DNA of 48,383 nucleotides, from assembly GCF_002155905.1 (NCBI RefSeq), contig NZ_MUMF01000006.1, positions 217 to 48,599 on the forward strand, given 5' to 3'. The notes beneath the pieces were generated by a model. That model was not told the origin of the DNA. It worked only from the letters and a program-made list of their open reading frames with translations, and did not search any database. This document shows positions 18,354 to 27,071 of the stretch, piece by piece. Positions within the stretch are counted from its first letter, which is position 1, and every line of letters starts with the position of its first letter. A program made the translations under genes and the position numbers. Source of the DNA: Streptomyces tricolor. GTDB lineage: Bacteria; Actinomycetota; Actinomycetes; Streptomycetales; Streptomycetaceae.

Positions 18354-18950
18354 CACCGTCGGCTGAGAGGCCGGGGCGGCCGACGCTCCGGCTGAGGGGC
18401 CGACGTGCCGGCGCACTGTCGGCCGCGGGGCCCTGGGGCGGGCCAGCGCTCCGGCAGAGAACCGACGCTCCGCACACCGTCGGCCGCAGCGCCCTGAGGC
18501 GGGCCAGCGCTCCGGCAGAGAACCGACGCGCCGCACACCGTCGGCTGCCGGGCCCTGGGCGGGCCGCCCCTCCGGCTGAGGGACCGACATGCCAGTGCAC
18601 CGTCGGCCGCAGGGCCCTGGGACGGGTCGACCCTCCGCTGAGGGACCGACGTGCCAGTGCACTGTCGGCCGCGGGGCCCTGGGACGGGCCGGCGTTCCGG
18701 CGGAGAACCGACGCGCCGGCGCACAGTCGGCCGCAGCGCCCTGAGGCGGGCCAGCGCTCCGGCAGAGAACCAACGCACCGCACACCGTCGGCTGCCAGGC
18801 CCCGGGGCGGGCCGACCCTCCGCTGAGGGACCGACATGCCAGTGCACCGTCGGCCGCAGGGCCCTGGGACGGGCCGGCGTTCCGGCGGAGAACCGACGTG
18901 CCGCACGCTGTCGGCTGCCGGGCCCTGGGGCGGGCCGACGCTTCGGCGCC
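18354..18950. repeat. Degenerate tandem array, about 10 units of 60-62 bp
   Basis: Units begin with CACCGTCGGC or close variants (CACTGTCGGC, CACAGTCGGC) at about 18354, 18414, 18475, 18536, 18598, 18660, 18722, 18783, 18845 and 18906; the last is incomplete. Each contains GGGCCCTGGG-like and CGGGCC segments and ends in GAACCGACG or GGACCGACA. At least two subtypes alternate: one has CTCCGGCAGAGAACCGACG, the other CCTCCGCTGAGGGACCGAC. Unit junctions form imperfect hairpins, with CCGACGTGC pairing with GCACTGTCGG across a short loop. It fills the gap between convergent cobC and the LAETG gene. Long open frames here are by-products of composition and period. Confidence 0.93.
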
Positions 18951-20117: not shown

Positions 20118-21209
20118 CTACTCGACGACGCGCCCGTTCAGCACCACCCGCCGCGGCCCGGCCAGCACCCGAACGTCGGCCCGCGGGTCGGCCTCGTACA
20201 CCACGAGGTCGGCCGGGGCGCCCTCCTCCAGGCCGGGCCGGCCGAGCCAGGCCCGGGCGCCCCAGCTCGTCGCCGACAGGGCCGCCACGGGCGGGATGCC
20301 GGCGGTGACCAGCTCGGCGACCTCCTCGGCGACCAGGCCGTGGGCCAGTGAGCCGCCGGCGTCCGTGCCGACGAAGACCGGGATGCCGGCGTCGTAGGCG
20401 GCGCGGACGGTGTCGTAGCGGCGTTCGTGCAGTCGGCGCATGTGGGCGGACCAGCGCGGGAACTTCTGCTCTCCGCCGTCGGCGAGCCGGGGGAAGGTGG
20501 CGATGTTGACGAGGGTGGGGACGATCGCGACGCCCCGCTCGGCGAACAGCGGGATCAGGTCCTCGGTGAGGCCGGTCGCGTGCTCGATGCAGTCGATGCC
20601 GGCCTCGACCAGGTCGCGCAGGGAGTTCTCGGCGAAGCAGTGGGCGGTGACGCGAGCGCCGAGCCGGTGGGCCTCGGCGATGGCCGCCTCCACCGCCTCG
20701 CGCGGCCAGCAGGGCGCCAGGTCGCCGAGGTCGCGGTCGATCCAGTCGCCGACCAGCTTGACCCAGCCGTCACCGCGCCGGGCCTCCTGGGCGACGTAGG
20801 CGACGAGGTCGTCCGGCTCGATCTCCCAGGCGTAGTTGCGGATGTAGCGGCGGGTGCGGGCGATGTGCCGGCCGGCCCGGATGATCTTCGGGAGGTCGTC
20901 CCGTTCGTCGATCCAGCGGGTGTCGGAGGGCGAGCCGGCGTCCCGGATCAGCAGGGTGCCCGCCTCGCGGTCGGTGAGCGCCTGCTTCTCGGCGGTCTCC
21001 GCGTCGACGGGGCCGTGCGCGTCGAGGCCGACATGGCAGTGCGCGTCGACCAGGCCGGGCAGCGCCCAGCCGGTGACAGTGGTGATGTCCCGGGCCCCGG
21101 CGGGGCGGTCGTAGGAGACGCGGCCCCCGACCACCCACAGCTCGTCACGGACGTCGTCCGGCCCCGCCAGGACCCGGCCCTTCACGTGCAGCACGGCACC
21201 ATCGCTCAT
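20118..21209 (-). CDS. Metal-dependent amidohydrolase family protein
   Basis: This protein of 363 residues belongs to the amidohydrolase superfamily (imidazolonepropionase/prolidase-like branch). Metal-site motifs are visible: DAHCHVGLD (HxH on strand 1), WVKLVGDW with a central Lys, ARVTAHCFAE, CIEHATGL and the late VGTDAGG aspartate. No signal peptide is seen, so it is cytoplasmic. Substrate is unknown; the family hydrolyses C-N bonds in cyclic or N-acylated compounds. The ATG at 21209 follows AGGG with 8-base spacing; an upstream GTG (21218) is less well placed. It starts 18 bases after the ABC ATPase stop on the same strand, suggesting one transcript with the transporter. Confidence 0.85.
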   Translation of the reverse strand: MSDGAVLHVKGRVLAGPDDVRDELWVVGGRVSYDRPAGARDITTVTGWALPGLVDAHCHVGLDAHGPVDAETAEKQALTDREAGTLLIRDAGSPSDTRWIDERDDLPKIIRAGRHIARTRRYIRNYAWEIEPDDLVAYVAQEARRGDGWVKLVGDWIDRDLGDLAPCWPREAVEAAIAEAHRLGARVTAHCFAENSLRDLVEAGIDCIEHATGLTEDLIPLFAERGVAIVPTLVNIATFPRLADGGEQKFPRWSAHMRRLHERRYDTVRAAYDAGIPVFVGTDAGGSLAHGLVAEEVAELVTAGIPPVAALSATSWGARAWLGRPGLEEGAPADLVVYEADPRADVRVLAGPRRVVLNGRVVE

Positions 21210-21227
21210 GCACTGCACCCTAACGAC

Positions 21228-22022
21228 CTACGGCTCGGACTTCCCCACCTGGTCGGAGGTCTCCTCCTCCACCTCGGCCATCGCGGGGTCGAGCAGCCGG
21301 GACAGGAAGTGCCGGGTGCGCTCGTGCTGCGGGTCGCCGATCACCCGCTCGGGGCTGCCGTCCTCGACGATCACGCCGCCGTCCATGAAGACGACCCGGT
21401 CGGCGACCTCGCGGGCGAAGGTCATCTCGTGGGTGACGACCATCATCGTCATGCCCTCGCGGGCGAGCCGGCGCATGACGGCGAGGACGTCGCCGACCAG
21501 CTCGGGGTCGAGCGCGGAGGTCGGCTCGTCGAAGAGCATCACCTCGGGGCCCATGGCGAGCGCGCGGGCGATGGCGACGCGCTGCTGCTGGCCGCCGGAG
21601 AGGGAGGACGGGTAGGCGTCCGCCTTCTCGGCGAGGCCGACGCGGGCGAGGTTCTCGGCGGCGATCTTCGCGGCCGTCTCCTTGTCCCGCCGCAGCACCC
21701 GGCGCTGCGGCAGCGTCAGGTTCTCGGTGACGTTCAGGTGCGGGAAGAGGTTGAACTGCTGGAAGACCATGCCGATACGGCGGCGTACGGCGTCGATGTC
21801 GACGTCGGGGTCGGTCACCTCGGTGCCGCCGACGAAGACCTGGCCCTTGGTGGGCTCCTCCAGCAGGTTCACGCAGCGCAGCAGCGTCGACTTGCCGGAG
21901 CCGGAGGGGCCGATGACGCAGACGACCTCGCCCTGGCCGATCTCCAGGTCGATGCCGCGCAGCACCTCGTTGTCGCCGAAGGACTTGTGCAGTCCGCGGA
22001 CCTCGATCTCGGGGCGGGTCAC
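21228..22022 (-). CDS. Polar amino-acid ABC transporter ATP-binding protein
   Basis: This 264-residue ABC ATPase is of the GlnQ/HisP type. Walker [10 protein letters not shown] is at 38-46, signature LSGGQQQR and Walker [15 protein letters not shown] follow, and the H-loop is in VVTHEM. The open frame extends to 22097, but the GTG at 22022 gives a normal N-terminus ([15 protein letters not shown]) and a four-base overlap with the permease stop. The C-terminal tail is acidic (EVEEETSDQ). It energises uptake of the ligand bound by the lipoprotein encoded at the head of the operon. Confidence 0.93.
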
Positions 22023-22852
22023 CGGATCGCCTCCTGGGCCTTGGATTCCATACGGCGGACGACGAAGCTCAGCGGGATGGTGACCAGCAGGTAGCACAGG
22101 CCCGCGACCAGGATCGGCGTGGAGTTGGCGGTCGTACTGGCGAGGTCGCGGCCGAACTTGGACAGCTCCCGCTCCTCCAGGGTGACGCCGAGGAACAGCA
22201 CCAGCGAGGAGTCCTTGAAGAGCAGGACGAGTTCGTTGGTGAGCGGCGGCAGGATGATCCGGAAGGCCTGCGGGACGATGATCGAGACCATCGCCTTCGC
22301 CGGCGAGAAGCCGAGCGAACGCGCCGCTTCCATCTGCCCCTTGGGCACCGCCTGGATGCCTGCGCGGATGGTCTCCGCCATGTACGCGGCCGAGACCAGG
22401 CCGAGCGCGAGGGCGACCTTGCCGTAGGTGCCGCCCGGGATCTCCGTGCCCGGGAAGGCGAGCGGGACGGCCACGCCGACGAAGATGAAGATCAGCAGGG
22501 CGGGCAGGCCGCGGAAGATCTCGATGTAGACGCCCGCCAGCCAGCGGTACGGCCCCACCGAGGACAGCCGCATCAGCGCGATGACCATGCCGAGGACGAG
22601 GCCGACGACGAAGCCGGACAGCGTGTACAGCACGGTGTTCTTCAGCGCCAGCGTGATGACGTCCGGGAACATCTGCCGGGCGAGGTCGGCCTGGGCGAAC
22701 TGGTTCTGCAGCCGGTCCCAGTCGGCCGTGACCGCGAAGGCGATCACGGCGGCGACGAAGACGGCGTACTGCACGCCCCGCGACAGGCTGCGCTTCTGGC
22801 GCCGGGTCAGCCCCTTCTTCTTCGGCTGGAGGGTTGTGTCCGTGTCGGTCAT
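22019..22852 (-). CDS. Polar amino-acid ABC transporter permease
   Basis: This 277-residue HisMQ-type permease has a cytoplasmic N-terminus rich in Lys and Arg, a first helix ([13 protein letters not shown]) and about five further membrane segments. The EAA loop reads [22 protein letters not shown], where it contacts the ATPase. The ATG at 22852 overlaps the stop of the binding-protein gene (ATGA) and is preferred over the upstream in-frame start at 22897. A single permease suggests a homodimer. Confidence 0.93.
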
Positions 22853-23700
22853 GAGGCGGCGGGAGAGGCGACGGAGGCGTCGTACGGGCCGATCCACTGC
22901 TCGTAGATCTTCTTGTAGGTGCCGTCGGCCTTGGCGGTCTTGAGCGCCTTGTTGATGGCGTCGAGCAGCGCCTTGTTGCCCTTCTTCACGGTGAAGCCGT
23001 ACTGCTCACCGGTCTTGAGGTTGTCGACCACCTTGAACTTGGCCGCGGTGGCCTTGTCCTTCAGCCAGCCCTGGACGACCGGGTAGTCGATGACGACGGC
23101 CTGGACCTGGCCGGTGCGCAGGCCGTTCAGGACGGCGTCGGAGGACTCGAAGGAGACCGGGTCGTAGCCCTTGGTCTTGGCGTAGTCCTCGCCGGTGGTC
23201 TGCGCCTGGGCGCCGAGCTTCTTGCCCTTGGCCTTGACGTCGGCGAGCGAGCCGATCCCGCTGTCCTTGTCGACCAGGACGGCCTGGGTGGCCTCGAAGT
23301 ACGGGTCGGAGAAGTCGACGTTCTTCTTGCGCTCGTCGGTGATGGTCATACCGGCGGCGGCCAGGTCGCACTCGCCGGAGTTCAGGAAGGCGCCGGTCTT
23401 GAAGTTCTCGAAGGGCGTGTCGCGGATCTGCTGCTTGACGCCGAGGTCCTCGGCGACCAAGTCGATCAGGGAGACGTCGAAGCCCTGCACCTTGCCGTCG
23501 ACCTCCGACTGGAACGGCGGGTAGGGCAGGTGGGTGCAGGTGGTCAGCTGACCGGCCTTGGCCAGGTGGACGCCCTTGACCGTGGTCTTGCCGCTCCCCC
23601 CGTTGTCGTCCGAGGAGCAGCCGGCCGCGACGAGCACGAGTGCGGCGGTCGCGGTGGTGGCGGCCAGAAGGCGGGTCCGGCGCCCTACGAGCGTTTTCAT
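22849..23700 (-). CDS. Amino-acid ABC transporter substrate-binding lipoprotein
   Basis: This 283-residue lipoprotein has a signal peptide and lipobox LVAAGC with the lipidated Cys at position 28. The mature part is a family 3 solute-binding fold: [39 protein letters not shown] and a C-terminal [18 protein letters not shown]. Ligands of this family are polar amino acids (glutamine, glutamate, cystine and others); the exact one is not readable. AGGAG is 8 bases before the ATG, inside a palindrome GGAGATCTCC. It is the first gene of the minus-strand operon. Confidence 0.94.
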
Positions 23701-23734
23701 GGGGAGATCTCCTGTGGTGGAACTGTGGCTTCCG

Positions 23735-23762
23735 ATTATAAGGAAGGGTTTGAGTCTCTCAA
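23735..23762 (-). promoter_or_regulatory. Near-consensus promoter of the amino-acid ABC operon
   Basis: On the minus strand, TTGAGA (23757-23762) and a perfect TATAAT (23735-23740) are separated by 16 bases. Such a close match to the housekeeping sigma consensus is rare in streptomycete DNA. It predicts a transcript starting near 23728, with a leader of about 28 bases before the binding-protein ATG. The inverted repeat at 23746-23771 covers the -35 and most of the spacer. Confidence 0.75.
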
Positions 23763-23771
23763 ATCAAACCC
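23746..23771. promoter_or_regulatory. Inverted-repeat operator candidate overlapping the ABC promoter
   Basis: GGGTTTGA (23746-23753) and TCAAACCC (23764-23771) are perfect inverted arms around 10 bases. A second nested repeat, TTTGAG-TCT-CTCAAA (23749-23763), uses the same bases. The position over the -35 suggests a repressor site. The regulator is not encoded next to it. Confidence 0.6.
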
Positions 23772-23850
23772 ATGGTTACGAAGCCTTTCGACCTAAGATC
23801 GGTGAAGTCGACCCGCCCAGAGCGAATCCGAGAGCGAAGAGAGCACCGCC

Positions 23851-24951
23851 GTGACCCACCCCTTCCTCGACCTGCCCCCGCTGAGTGCCGAGCGCTTCGC
23901 CGCCATCGAGGACGGGGTGGCCCGGCTGCTGGACACCCGGCAGGACGTCCTGATCACCCAGGGCGAGGCGCTGCTCCCGCTGGAGGGCGCGATCCGCGCG
24001 GCGGCCGGTCCGGGCACCGTGGCCCTGAACGTGATCACGGGCCCGTACGGCCAGACCTTCGGCAACTGGCTGCGGGACGCCGGCGCCACGGTGCACGACC
24101 TGTCGGTCCCCTTCCACACGGCGGCGACCGCCGAGCAGATCCGGCAGGCCTTCGCCGAACACCCGGAGATCGACTTCGTGTCGCTGGTGCACGCCGAGGC
24201 GGCGACCGGCAACACCAACCCGGTCGCCGAGATCGGCGAGGCGGTGCGGGCCCAGGGCGCCCTCTTCTACCTGGACGCGGTGGCCTCCGTGGGCGCGGAG
24301 CCGGTGCTGCCGGACGCGTGGGGCGTGGACCTGTGCGTGATCGGGGCGCAGAAGGCGATGGGCGGCCCGGCGGGCGTGTCGGCGATCTCGGTGAGCGAGC
24401 GGGCGTGGACCCGGATGGCCGCCAACCCGAACGCCCCGCGCCGCTCCTACCTGTCCCTGCTGGACTGGAAGGAGCGCTGGATCGACGCCGGCCGGACGGC
24501 GCTGCCGCATGCTCCGGCCCAGCTGGAGATGCTGGCGCTGGAGGCGTGCCTGGAGCGGATCGAGTCGGCCGGCCTGCAGACGGTGATGGCCCGGCACCGG
24601 CGCGCCGCGCTGGCCACGCGGGCCGGTGCGGTGGCGCTGGGCGGGGGCCTGGAGCCGTATGTGTACGAGGAGCGGGACGCGGCCCCGGTCGCCACGACCC
24701 TGCGGGTGCCGTCGGGGGTGGCGGCCTCGGACCTGGTGGCCCGCGCGCTGGCGACGGACCCGACGCTGCCGCTGGCGGCCGGCGGCGGCGCCCTGGCCAA
24801 GGAGATGATCCGCGTCAACCACTACGGCCCCGACGCGACCCCGGGCGCGGTGCAGAACTCCCTGGCCGCCCTGGGCGCCGCGCTCGCGGAGCAGGGGCTG
24901 CCGGTGGACCCGGCCGCCGCCCGCCGGGCCGCGGAGCTGGCCTGGGGGTAG
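23851..24951 (+). CDS. Class V aminotransferase, alanine-glyoxylate/serine-pyruvate type
   Basis: This 366-residue PLP enzyme has the internal-aldimine Lys168 in VIGAQKAMGGPAG. HAEAATGNTNPVAEIGE (114-130) and FYLDAVASVGAEP (139-151) match the family's conserved blocks. The likely reaction is transamination between a small amino acid and glyoxylate or pyruvate; a pyridoxamine-pyruvate-type role is possible. GTG at 23851 is preceded by GAGAG-like sequence, and TAAGAT at 23794-23799 may be its -10. It diverges from the amino-acid transporter operon and ends in a strong terminator. Confidence 0.85.
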   Translation: MTHPFLDLPPLSAERFAAIEDGVARLLDTRQDVLITQGEALLPLEGAIRAAAGPGTVALNVITGPYGQTFGNWLRDAGATVHDLSVPFHTAATAEQIRQAFAEHPEIDFVSLVHAEAATGNTNPVAEIGEAVRAQGALFYLDAVASVGAEPVLPDAWGVDLCVIGAQKAMGGPAGVSAISVSERAWTRMAANPNAPRRSYLSLLDWKERWIDAGRTALPHAPAQLEMLALEACLERIESAGLQTVMARHRRAALATRAGAVALGGGLEPYVYEERDAAPVATTLRVPSGVAASDLVARALATDPTLPLAAGGGALAKEMIRVNHYGPDATPGAVQNSLAALGAALAEQGLPVDPAAARRAAELAWG

Positions 24952-24969
24952 TCAGCCCGGAACGCACGG

Positions 24970-25002
24970 AAAACGGCCCGCGCACCTCACGCGGGCCGTT
25001 TT
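24970..25002 (+). terminator. Intrinsic terminator after the aminotransferase gene
   Basis: A perfect 13-bp stem (AAAACGGCCCGCG at 24970-24982 and CGCGGGCCGTTTT at 24990-25002) closes on CACCTCA. The A and T ends make it bidirectional in form. It isolates the ectoine operon from upstream transcription. Confidence 0.9.
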
Positions 25003-25267
25003 CACATCCTGAATTCCAATTACTTTCACAATCTCCGCCAATTTACCGGACGATAGCTTCCCATCTTCTTCTGCCCGCTTTTTGCAGAGCTAAACAAGGG
25101 ACTTTGCGGACGGATTTCCGGGGGCTTTCGTGCTGTGACACACTCCACAGCGAGCACGCTTTGTCCCGATATTTCACGGGGCATTCCGGACATATCGCCT
25201 GGGCGACGAGTGGCCCCCGTGATCACTCCCGTGCATTTTCGAATTCGCCTCGCTAAATTCGTGCCGC
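25003..25267 (+). promoter_or_regulatory. A/T-richer upstream region of the ectoine operon
   Basis: This gene-free stretch is visibly lower in GC than its surroundings, for example near 25011-25090 and 25231-25260. TAAATT at 25254-25259 is a reasonable -10, only 8 bases from the ectA ATG, while no good -35 is seen at the usual distance. AATTCG occurs twice (25242 and 25256) and CGAATTCG is palindromic. Osmotic and GlnR control of ectABCD are described for S. coelicolor; no certain GlnR box was recognised here. Confidence 0.55.
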
Positions 25268-25786
25268 ATGACTGCCGCACCCGCAGACCTGCTCATCGAA
25301 CGGCCGGCGACGACGGACGGAGCCGCGCTCTGGCGTCTCGCCAAGGAATCGAAGACCCTCGATCTGAACTCCTCCTACAGCTATGTGCTGTGGTGCCGGG
25401 ACTTCGCCGGCACCTCGGCGGTGGCGCGCGGTGCGGGCGGGGAGCCGGTCGGCTTCGTCACCGGGTACCTGCGGCCGGACCGCCCCCGCACCCTGCTCGT
25501 CTGGCAGGTCGCCGTCGACCCCGCCCACCGGGGTCACGGCATCGCCGCCAAGCTGCTGGACGGGCTGACCGCCCGGCTCACCGCCGAACGCGGCATCACC
25601 GAGCTGGAGACCACCATCACGCCCGGCAACACCGCCTCCGAGCGGCTGTTCACCTCGTTCGCCGAGCGGCACGGCGCCGGGGTCAGCCGCGAGGTGCTGT
25701 TCCCCGCCGACCTGTTCCCGGACGGCCCGCACGACCCCGAAGTCCTCTACCGCATCGGCCCGCTGACCGAGTTCACCGCCCACTGA
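25268..25786 (+). CDS. ectA: L-2,4-diaminobutyrate N-gamma-acetyltransferase
   Basis: This 172-residue GNAT-fold enzyme acetylates 2,4-diaminobutyrate in the second step of ectoine synthesis. EctA features are LAKESKTLDLNSSYSYVLWCRDFAGTS, the acetyl-CoA loop VDPAHRGHGIAAKLLDGL and ETTITPGNTASERLFTSFA. There is no Shine-Dalgarno sequence before the ATG, and a candidate -10 lies 8 bases upstream, so the message may be leaderless. It heads the ectABCD operon; ectB follows after 13 bases. Confidence 0.96.
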   Translation: MTAAPADLLIERPATTDGAALWRLAKESKTLDLNSSYSYVLWCRDFAGTSAVARGAGGEPVGFVTGYLRPDRPRTLLVWQVAVDPAHRGHGIAAKLLDGLTARLTAERGITELETTITPGNTASERLFTSFAERHGAGVSREVLFPADLFPDGPHDPEVLYRIGPLTEFTAH

Positions 25787-25799
25787 GGAGCGATTGACC

Positions 25800-27071
25800 G
25801 TGACCATCACCCAGCCCGACCTCAGCGTCTTCGAGACCCTCGAATCCGAGGTGCGCAGCTACTGCCGCGGCTGGCCCGTCGTCTTCGACCGGGCGCAGGG
25901 CAGCCGGATGTACGACGAGGACGGCCATGCGTACCTCGACTTCTTCGCCGGTGCCGGATCACTCAACTACGGCCACAACAACCCGGTGCTGAAACGGGCG
26001 TTGCTCGACTATCTGGAACGGGACGGGGTCACCCACGGCCTGGACATGTCGACCACGGCCAAGCGGTCGTTCCTGCGGGCGTTCCAGGAGCTGGTGCTGC
26101 GTCCGCGTGATCTGCCGTACAAGGTGATGTTCCCCGGCCCGACGGGCACGAACGCGGTGGAGTCGGCGCTGAAGCTGGCGCGGAAGGTGAAGGGGCGCGA
26201 GGCGATCGTGTCGTTCACCAACGCCTTCCACGGCATGTCGCTGGGTTCGCTCGCGGTGACCGGGAACGCCTTCAAGCGGGCCGGTGCCGGGGTTCCGCTG
26301 GTGCACGGCACGCCGATGCCGTTCGACAACTACTTCGACGGTACGGTGCCGGACTTCCTGTGGTTCGAGCGGCTGCTGGAGGACCAGGGGTCGGGGCTGA
26401 ACCGGCCGGCCGCGGTGATCGTGGAGACCGTGCAGGGCGAGGGCGGGATCAACGTGGCCCGGCCGGAGTGGCTGCGGGCGCTGAAGGATCTGTGCGAGCG
26501 GCAGGACATGCTGCTGATCGTCGACGACATCCAGATGGGCTGCGGCCGTACCGGTGCCTTCTTCTCCTTCGAGGAGGCGGGGATCACTCCGGACATCGTC
26601 ACGGTGTCGAAGTCGATCAGCGGGTACGGGCTGCCGATGTCGCTGTGCCTGTTCCGGCCCGAGCTGGACATCTGGGAGCCGGGTGAGCACAACGGCACCT
26701 TCCGCGGCAACAACCCCGCCTTCGTCACCGCCACCGCCGCCCTGGAGACCTACTGGACCGACGGCCCGGCGATGGAGAAGCAGACCCGCGCCCGCGGCGA
26801 ACAGATCGAGCAGGCCCTGATCTCCATCACCGAGGAGAACCTCGCCGATGTGAAGGAGTACCGCGGCCGCGGGCTCGTGTGGGGCCTGGAGTTCCACGCC
26901 AAGGACCGGGCCGCGCGGGTCGCGCGGCGCGCCTTCGAACTGGGGCTGCTCATCGAGACGTCCGGCCCCGAGGGCGAGGTCGTCAAGCTGCTGCCCGCCC
27001 TCACCGTGACCCCCGACGAGCTGGACGAGGGCCTCAGCGTCCTCGCCCGCGCCGTCCGGGAAACCGCCTGA
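25800..27071 (+). CDS. ectB: L-2,4-diaminobutyrate transaminase
   Basis: This 423-residue class III aminotransferase converts aspartate semialdehyde to diaminobutyrate using glutamate. The PLP Lys is K271 in TVSKSISGYGLP, IVDDIQMGCGRTGAFF holds the cofactor-binding Asp, and PGPTGTNAVESALKLARKVKGR is near the start. The GTG at 25800 is chosen because GAGGAG lies 9 bases upstream; a TTG at 25794 would be too close to it. It is the second gene of the operon and has the usual EctB length. Confidence 0.96.
   Translation: MTITQPDLSVFETLESEVRSYCRGWPVVFDRAQGSRMYDEDGHAYLDFFAGAGSLNYGHNNPVLKRALLDYLERDGVTHGLDMSTTAKRSFLRAFQELVLRPRDLPYKVMFPGPTGTNAVESALKLARKVKGREAIVSFTNAFHGMSLGSLAVTGNAFKRAGAGVPLVHGTPMPFDNYFDGTVPDFLWFERLLEDQGSGLNRPAAVIVETVQGEGGINVARPEWLRALKDLCERQDMLLIVDDIQMGCGRTGAFFSFEEAGITPDIVTVSKSISGYGLPMSLCLFRPELDIWEPGEHNGTFRGNNPAFVTATAALETYWTDGPAMEKQTRARGEQIEQALISITEENLADVKEYRGRGLVWGLEFHAKDRAARVARRAFELGLLIETSGPEGEVVKLLPALTVTPDELDEGLSVLARAVRETA

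Follow-up and report, generated by a model that had tools for sequence, protein, structure and literature searches.

In Staphylococcus and Bacillus, cystine uptake is repressed according to cysteine status by CymR, a protein of the Rrf2 family whose site differs from the operator described here and is longer, and the site of McbR is TAGAC-N5-GTCTA. McbR/CysR controls sulphur regulons in Corynebacterium (PMC2580772, in part). In E. coli, the cysteine-responsive YbaO (DecR/CyuR) is tied to cysteine-handling genes (PMC7373191, in part) and is a member of the Lrp/AsnC family (PMC8707732, in part), while YdjN and FliY-YecSC provide a symporter and an ABC importer for cystine (PMC4383340, in part). 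In the literature that we searched, with subscription papers mostly outside it, we found no account of the control of cysteine uptake and breakdown in Streptomyces, and at the level of titles and abstract openings, among the matches listed, none of the operator or regulon presented below. Here we find that the operator-covered promoter of an amino-acid ABC operon in Streptomyces tricolor is probably one target among three in a small Streptomyces regulon linked to cysteine.

The window, which is the whole stretch of 48,383 nucleotides that was analysed, carries the promoter at 23735-23771, where the minus strand reads GGGTTTGATTTGAGAGACTCAAACCCTTCCTTATAAT (23771..23735), in agreement with the coordinates and letters of the initial annotation. 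The features of the locus are:

23735..23740, minus strand: -10 hexamer TATAAT, within a nearly invariant 15-base block, TCCTTATAATCGGAA
23757..23762, minus strand: -35 hexamer TTGAGA, inside the inner palindrome, with a spacer of 16 nt to the -10
23749..23763, no strand: putative operator palindrome TTTGAG-TCT-CTCAAA, 15 bp, exact
23746-23771: outer repeat GGGTTTGA-N10-TCAAACCC, which contains the inner palindrome
23764..23771, no strand: third half-site-like element, TCAAACCC, the right arm of the outer repeat
23728, minus strand: predicted transcription start, ~7 nt past TATAAT with a leader of ~28 nt, from promoter geometry
22849..23700, minus strand: substrate-binding protein (SBP) of an amino-acid ABC importer (SBP_bac_3; Pfam and NCBIfam)
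22019..22897, minus strand: ABC permease, as the listed ORF; a likelier start, MTDTDTT, is internal to it
21228..22097, minus strand: ABC ATPase, whose best NCBIfam scores are GlnQ and then TcyN, both below cut-off
20118..21218, minus strand: amidohydrolase, probably of the same operon judging from spacing and strand
23851..24951, plus strand: divergent class-V aminotransferase, with the operator in the shared intergenic region

The near-consensus promoter that had been proposed here, TTGAGA-16-TATAAT, is correct in its letters. It matches the sigma-70-type (HrdB) hexamers TTGACA and TATAAT at 11/12 positions, its 16-nt spacer falls in the usual 16-18 nt range, and it is the sole sigma-70-like match in 22000-26000 (1 match vs a mean of 0.2, sd 0.5, in shuffles). 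The -35 hexamer does lie inside the palindrome, as had also been claimed. MerR-type spacer operators place a dyad between the -35 and the -10 hexamers with a spacer of 19-20 nt, and this arrangement was rejected because the spacer here is 16. The exact inner palindrome occurs once in the window, and the 4 sites found there with up to 3 mismatches are at chance level (2.1 expected). A leader hairpin, GGAAC/GTTCC, had no support in the window (z = -0.14).

Reading away from the promoter on the minus strand, the gene order is SBP, permease, ATPase and amidohydrolase, and the class-V aminotransferase and ectA have the opposite orientation. The SBP is closest to Gln/Arg-type binding proteins; against NCBIfam, no model scored above its cut-off for it, so no ligand was assigned. 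Two Arg-rich ORFs (18-19% Arg) shadow the aminotransferase gene at 23776-24822 (minus strand) and 23772-25256 (plus strand), and the same place in six relatives holds minus-strand ORFs of 339-486 aa with 16-22% Arg. SCO1863, an Arg-rich protein of 406 aa with a putative GlnR site, has been suggested to store nitrogen (PMC3073908, in part), and the published SCO1863 may itself be a shadow ORF of the aminotransferase gene. Farther along the window, a GC-rich tandem array at 18354-18947 (periods of ~62, 185 and 247 bp) sits between a gene that by eye is cobC-like and a secreted protein gene.

The initial annotation had staked its reading beforehand on conservation of the palindrome upstream of orthologues, and the palindrome is conserved. 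We compiled 128 orthologous promoters, 48 from 150 same-genus genomes (49 orthologues at ≥75% identity, leaving out G144, which begins at a contig edge) and the best 80 of 349 named loci; these are not fully independent, since the named loci may share species with the genus set, and they reduce to 116 distinct 80-mers. TTTGRG-N3-CYCAAA is matched at ≥11 of its 12 specified positions in 122/128 promoters and at all 12 in 105/128, which places a conserved dyad over the core promoter at these 122 orthologues, as at a repressor operator. The distance from the start of the palindrome to that of the -10 block is the same, 19 bases, in all 124 promoters with ≥10/12 positions, and the -10 block itself is matched at ≥13 of 15 positions in 125/128 orthologues. 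Across the 116 distinct promoters, complementarity holds in 89-98% for inner pairs 1-4 and 6 and in 65% for pair 5 (R/Y); all four bases occur at every one of the three central positions, where the commonest base reaches 57-61%. The inner palindrome is thus, on sequence grounds, a real if putative operator. Against this, it is absent at four of the 128 SBP promoters (L013, L019, L142 and L156), and position 5 shows no co-variation between the arms (Fisher p = 1). In 22 less similar SBPs (47-77% identity; L050-L071), the operator was found at none (best match 8/12), and no aminotransferase neighbour was found beside these genes.

The outer repeat fared differently. The idea that two overlapping palindromes offer alternative dimer spacings does not hold up, as only the inner dyad is conserved; in the outer repeat, pair 1 is complementary in just 11% of the 116 distinct promoters, pair 2 in 35% and pair 8 in 48%, and the outer palindrome was rejected as a second dimer site. 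A search for the outer repeat genome-wide and at orthologues had been proposed, and it recovered the pattern GGGTTTGA-N10-TCAAACCC at this locus, as a single copy in its own genome (reversed control 0) whose dyad the orthologues do not conserve. The right arm persists in relatives as yCAAaCCgATGG, with most of columns 35-45 well conserved across the 116 promoters, and it would be best described as an extra half-site.

The main result is that the operator marks a wider regulon, an SDF-family symporter and Cds1 beside the ABC operon, which the initial annotation missed. The S. tricolor genome (G000; 8.8 Mb, 1107 contigs) contains TTTGRGNNNCYCAAA without mismatch twice, at the ABC promoter and 114 bp before cds1. 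Looser sites are not enriched in this genome, with 4 copies of TTTGRGNNNCYCAAA at ≤1 mismatch vs 5 in the reversed control and 12 of GTTTGRGNNNCYCAAAC at ≤2 mismatches vs 21, leaving just the two full matches to stand out. Across the genus, 146 of 295 genomes contain an exact TTTGAGNNNCTCAAA (reversed control 5). We placed 49 distinct exact sites from the matches listed, 30 from the search output and 19 picked with a leaning to still-unexplained places, and 47 of them precede an SDF-family symporter (23), Cds1 (15) or the SBP (9); the other two precede none of these genes, and one of them falls within a reading frame recognised as recA-like. To avoid circularity, SDF and Cds1 orthologues were then taken on protein similarity only, blind to the motif (the best 30 from 43 and 30 from 56 genomes, respectively). 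A site with ≥11/12 positions is present in 27/30 SDF and 20/30 Cds1 upstream regions, vs 0/60 coding windows and 0.1% of shuffled upstreams, the shuffles preserving base composition only. Two of the three SDF misses (L283 and L304) stem from the edge of the 300-bp search window, and their sites are present. The absence of the site from 10/30 Cds1 upstream regions counts against a common regulon; all ten are from genomes without an ABC orthologue at 75% identity.

In a class-wide sample, the extended site CTTTGRGNNNCYCAAAG occurs in 18/28 Streptomyces and 3/268 other genomes. Leaving out the second site of G556, we inspected 18 of the 19 Streptomyces sites, and nine precede SDF and nine precede Cds1, with at least G013, G067, G087 and G210 repeating genomes of the TTTGAGNNNCTCAAA scan. 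None of the three sites outside Streptomyces lies beside an SDF or Cds1 gene. At one locus from another family (L372, genome G638), a matching site and a further CAAAG half-site precede a gene that by eye is secreted protease-like; this is a single case and perhaps chance. The identity of Cds1 comes from the relative G013, whose protein reaches the NCBIfam equivalog for L-cysteine desulfhydrase Cds1 exactly at its cut-off (600/600 bits), and the S. tricolor protein shares 91% identity with that of G013. The SDF gene is found close to mqnE (its model is named after SCO4494) with Lrp and TetR neighbours, and from this neighbourhood we take it as SCO4498-like (gene numbers from PMC3784963 and PMC4991794, each in part).

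The position of the operator differs among the targets. In aligned upstream regions it lies over the -35 at the SBP (centre ~-28) and at SDF (~-30 from the predicted start), and at cds1 it lies ~46 bases before a conserved TATGAT, with its centre at ~-58 from the predicted start; the -10 elements of SDF and cds1 were picked out by eye, and all starts are predicted. Directly downstream of the operator, the cds1 upstream regions also contain a second, almost invariant block, GTTTATGCAGGTGAGAAGC. This geometry suggests a repressor-like arrangement at both importers and an activator-like one at cds1, and repression would be the natural reading at the ABC operon. One could argue instead that the block is merely a strong conserved promoter with a palindrome that serves no regulator, as the -10 block is conserved even more than the palindrome; however, the palindrome arms are conserved while the centre varies, and the copy of the palindrome at cds1 is situated upstream of the promoter predicted there, and we consider this explanation barely credible. 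In the regulon that we favour, a putative dimeric regulator would bind TTTGRG-N3-CYCAAA, covering the -35 at the ABC operon and the SDF symporter, where it should block RNA polymerase, and at cds1 it would sit at ~-58, a position often used by activators. By the simplest logic, uptake would be turned off and breakdown turned on when the amino acid that is imported, in all likelihood cyst(e)ine, is in excess. We put forward only tentatively, as a reading with somewhat less than even chances, that this is a new cyst(e)ine-sensing circuit in which a single regulator acts both ways, repressing two importers that belong to different families and are interchangeable, and activating the H2S-producing Cds1.

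The two importers may tend to replace one another. Among 61 genomes, 12 have the ABC operon and not SDF, 3 have both, 40 have SDF only and 6 have neither (Fisher p = 3e-6), so that the symporter is absent in 12/15 ABC holders vs 6/46 other genomes. On a Cds1 gene tree of 30 of the 61 genomes, each importer changes ~4 times and there were no significant independent pairs; with so few changes, the importer swap is only suggestive. The S. tricolor genome has no SDF gene, and the small membrane-protein gene and TetR gene that flank it in relatives abut, as they also do in G033 (L349). At L306:7194-7226 and at L349 the symporter is missing between neighbours that flank it in L308 and L309, and in G049 (L350) ~3 kb of other sequence lies between the two flanking genes.

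Cyst(e)ine is the likely signal of the regulon. Cds1 acts on cysteine by family, and for the importers the substrates are candidates only. In oxidatively stressed S. coelicolor, SCO4498 rises ~12-fold by RNA-Seq, though only 2.5-fold by qRT-PCR, together with the sulphate-to-cysteine genes cysH, cysI, cysN/D/C and cysM (PMC4991794, in part). The same source attributes the rise to SenR and predicts a site for it upstream of the gene (PMC4991794, in part), which, like the low qRT-PCR value, counts against the regulon. We grade cyst(e)ine no higher than likely because of the acidic-transporter kinship of SDF, its gltP label and an SBP without an assigned ligand. The nearest relatives of the SDF protein are aspartate/glutamate transporters, and it retains their TM8 motif DM-x-RT, whose Arg presumably binds acidic side chains. 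SCO4498 appears as gltP, a glutamate symporter, in a review table (PMC10704036, in part). An acidic amino acid is therefore possible, and the regulon might respond to glutamate, aspartate or a relative carried by both importers, with cds1 included for carbon/nitrogen and not sulphur reasons; the kinship of the SBP with Gln/Arg-type binding proteins would also fit. However, Cds1 is a cysteine enzyme by its family name and SCO4498 is induced alongside genes of cysteine synthesis (PMC4991794, in part), and we regard an acidic signal as rather unlikely.

As for the regulator of this putative cysteine-linked regulon, an Lrp/AsnC protein is our leading guess, as a possible lead only. A dyad with a 3-bp centre and repeated half-sites suits this family in general (PMC8707732, in part). 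The SBP and SDF promoters have such a 6-3-6 dyad with extra half-sites, and similar forms occur in other families. Among the genomes inspected, a SCO4493-like Lrp/AsnC gene is present at the mqnE locus in G000 and in five that have a perfect site and gave no match to the TetR gene considered below, a weak pointer given the 17 PF01037 genes in G000. The SCO4493-like protein belongs to a set of 24 nucleoid-protein candidates in S. coelicolor (PMC3784963, in part). An autoregulated Lrp/AsnC gene was rejected, as none of the 17 PF01037 matches in G000 has a 10/12 site in its fetched flanks. The SCO4499-like TetR protein encoded directly downstream of the SDF gene could also be the regulator: a look-alike gene, recognised by short sequence strings, is in the fetched flank of 11/30 SDF loci, and the gene is kept in G000, where SDF is missing. 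However, there was no match at E 1e-40 in 12/61 genomes, in a scan that scored, for each genome, just the best 49 candidates from a first look and whose cut-off can miss diverged copies, such as a short look-alike seen in G010; five of these genomes (G012, G038, G039, G042 and G054) keep a perfect SDF site with no such gene beside SDF. On the sequences compared, this TetR protein is disfavoured and very unlikely to be the regulator.

Nitrogen control through GlnR, as published for the SCO1863 region, is another source from which the site might come, since GlnR and PhoP binding near SCO1863 has been reported (PMC10704036 and PMC3073908, each in part) and SCO4498 is in the gene table of the same review (PMC10704036, in part). 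This is highly improbable: the binding near SCO1863 appears from the published gene order (in the parts of those sources at hand) to concern the ectA side, and the best match here to the GlnR box gTnAc-n6-GaAAc has 2 mismatches and is at chance level, with 57 such matches in the window vs 66.8 expected. The promoter was accordingly not retained as a GlnR regulon member. Beside cds1 in other genera, visual inspection turned up no recurrent regulator, and the 8 cds1 loci from outside Streptomyces have no 10/12 site. Many Streptomyces loci have a DeoR-like gene close to cds1; the 9 kb fetched from G000 contain none.

Sulphur antibiotics, mycothiol and H2S all draw on cysteine. With its short, nearly unique sequence and three targets, the operator can serve as bait for the regulator and as a direct route to the substrate of the importers. 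Compared with known systems, the Streptomyces regulon resembles YbaO in pairing a presumably cysteine-linked regulator with cysteine-handling genes, a likeness drawn from regulator and targets; it differs in that cysteine induces the transporter yhaO in E. coli, whereas here two importers look repressed. With CymR it would share the repression of cystine uptake by cysteine status, although the longer CymR site is unlike the Streptomyces operator, and with McbR/CysR the control of sulphur amino acids in actinobacteria, although the McbR site is unlike TTTGRG-N3-CYCAAA. GlnR is reported at the neighbouring ectoine/SCO1863 region (sources in part), whereas no above-chance GlnR box is found at this promoter. 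As in YdjN and FliY-YecSC, a symporter and an ABC importer may serve one amino acid; unlike in E. coli, most ABC holders here lack the symporter and a single operator occurs at both kinds of promoter.
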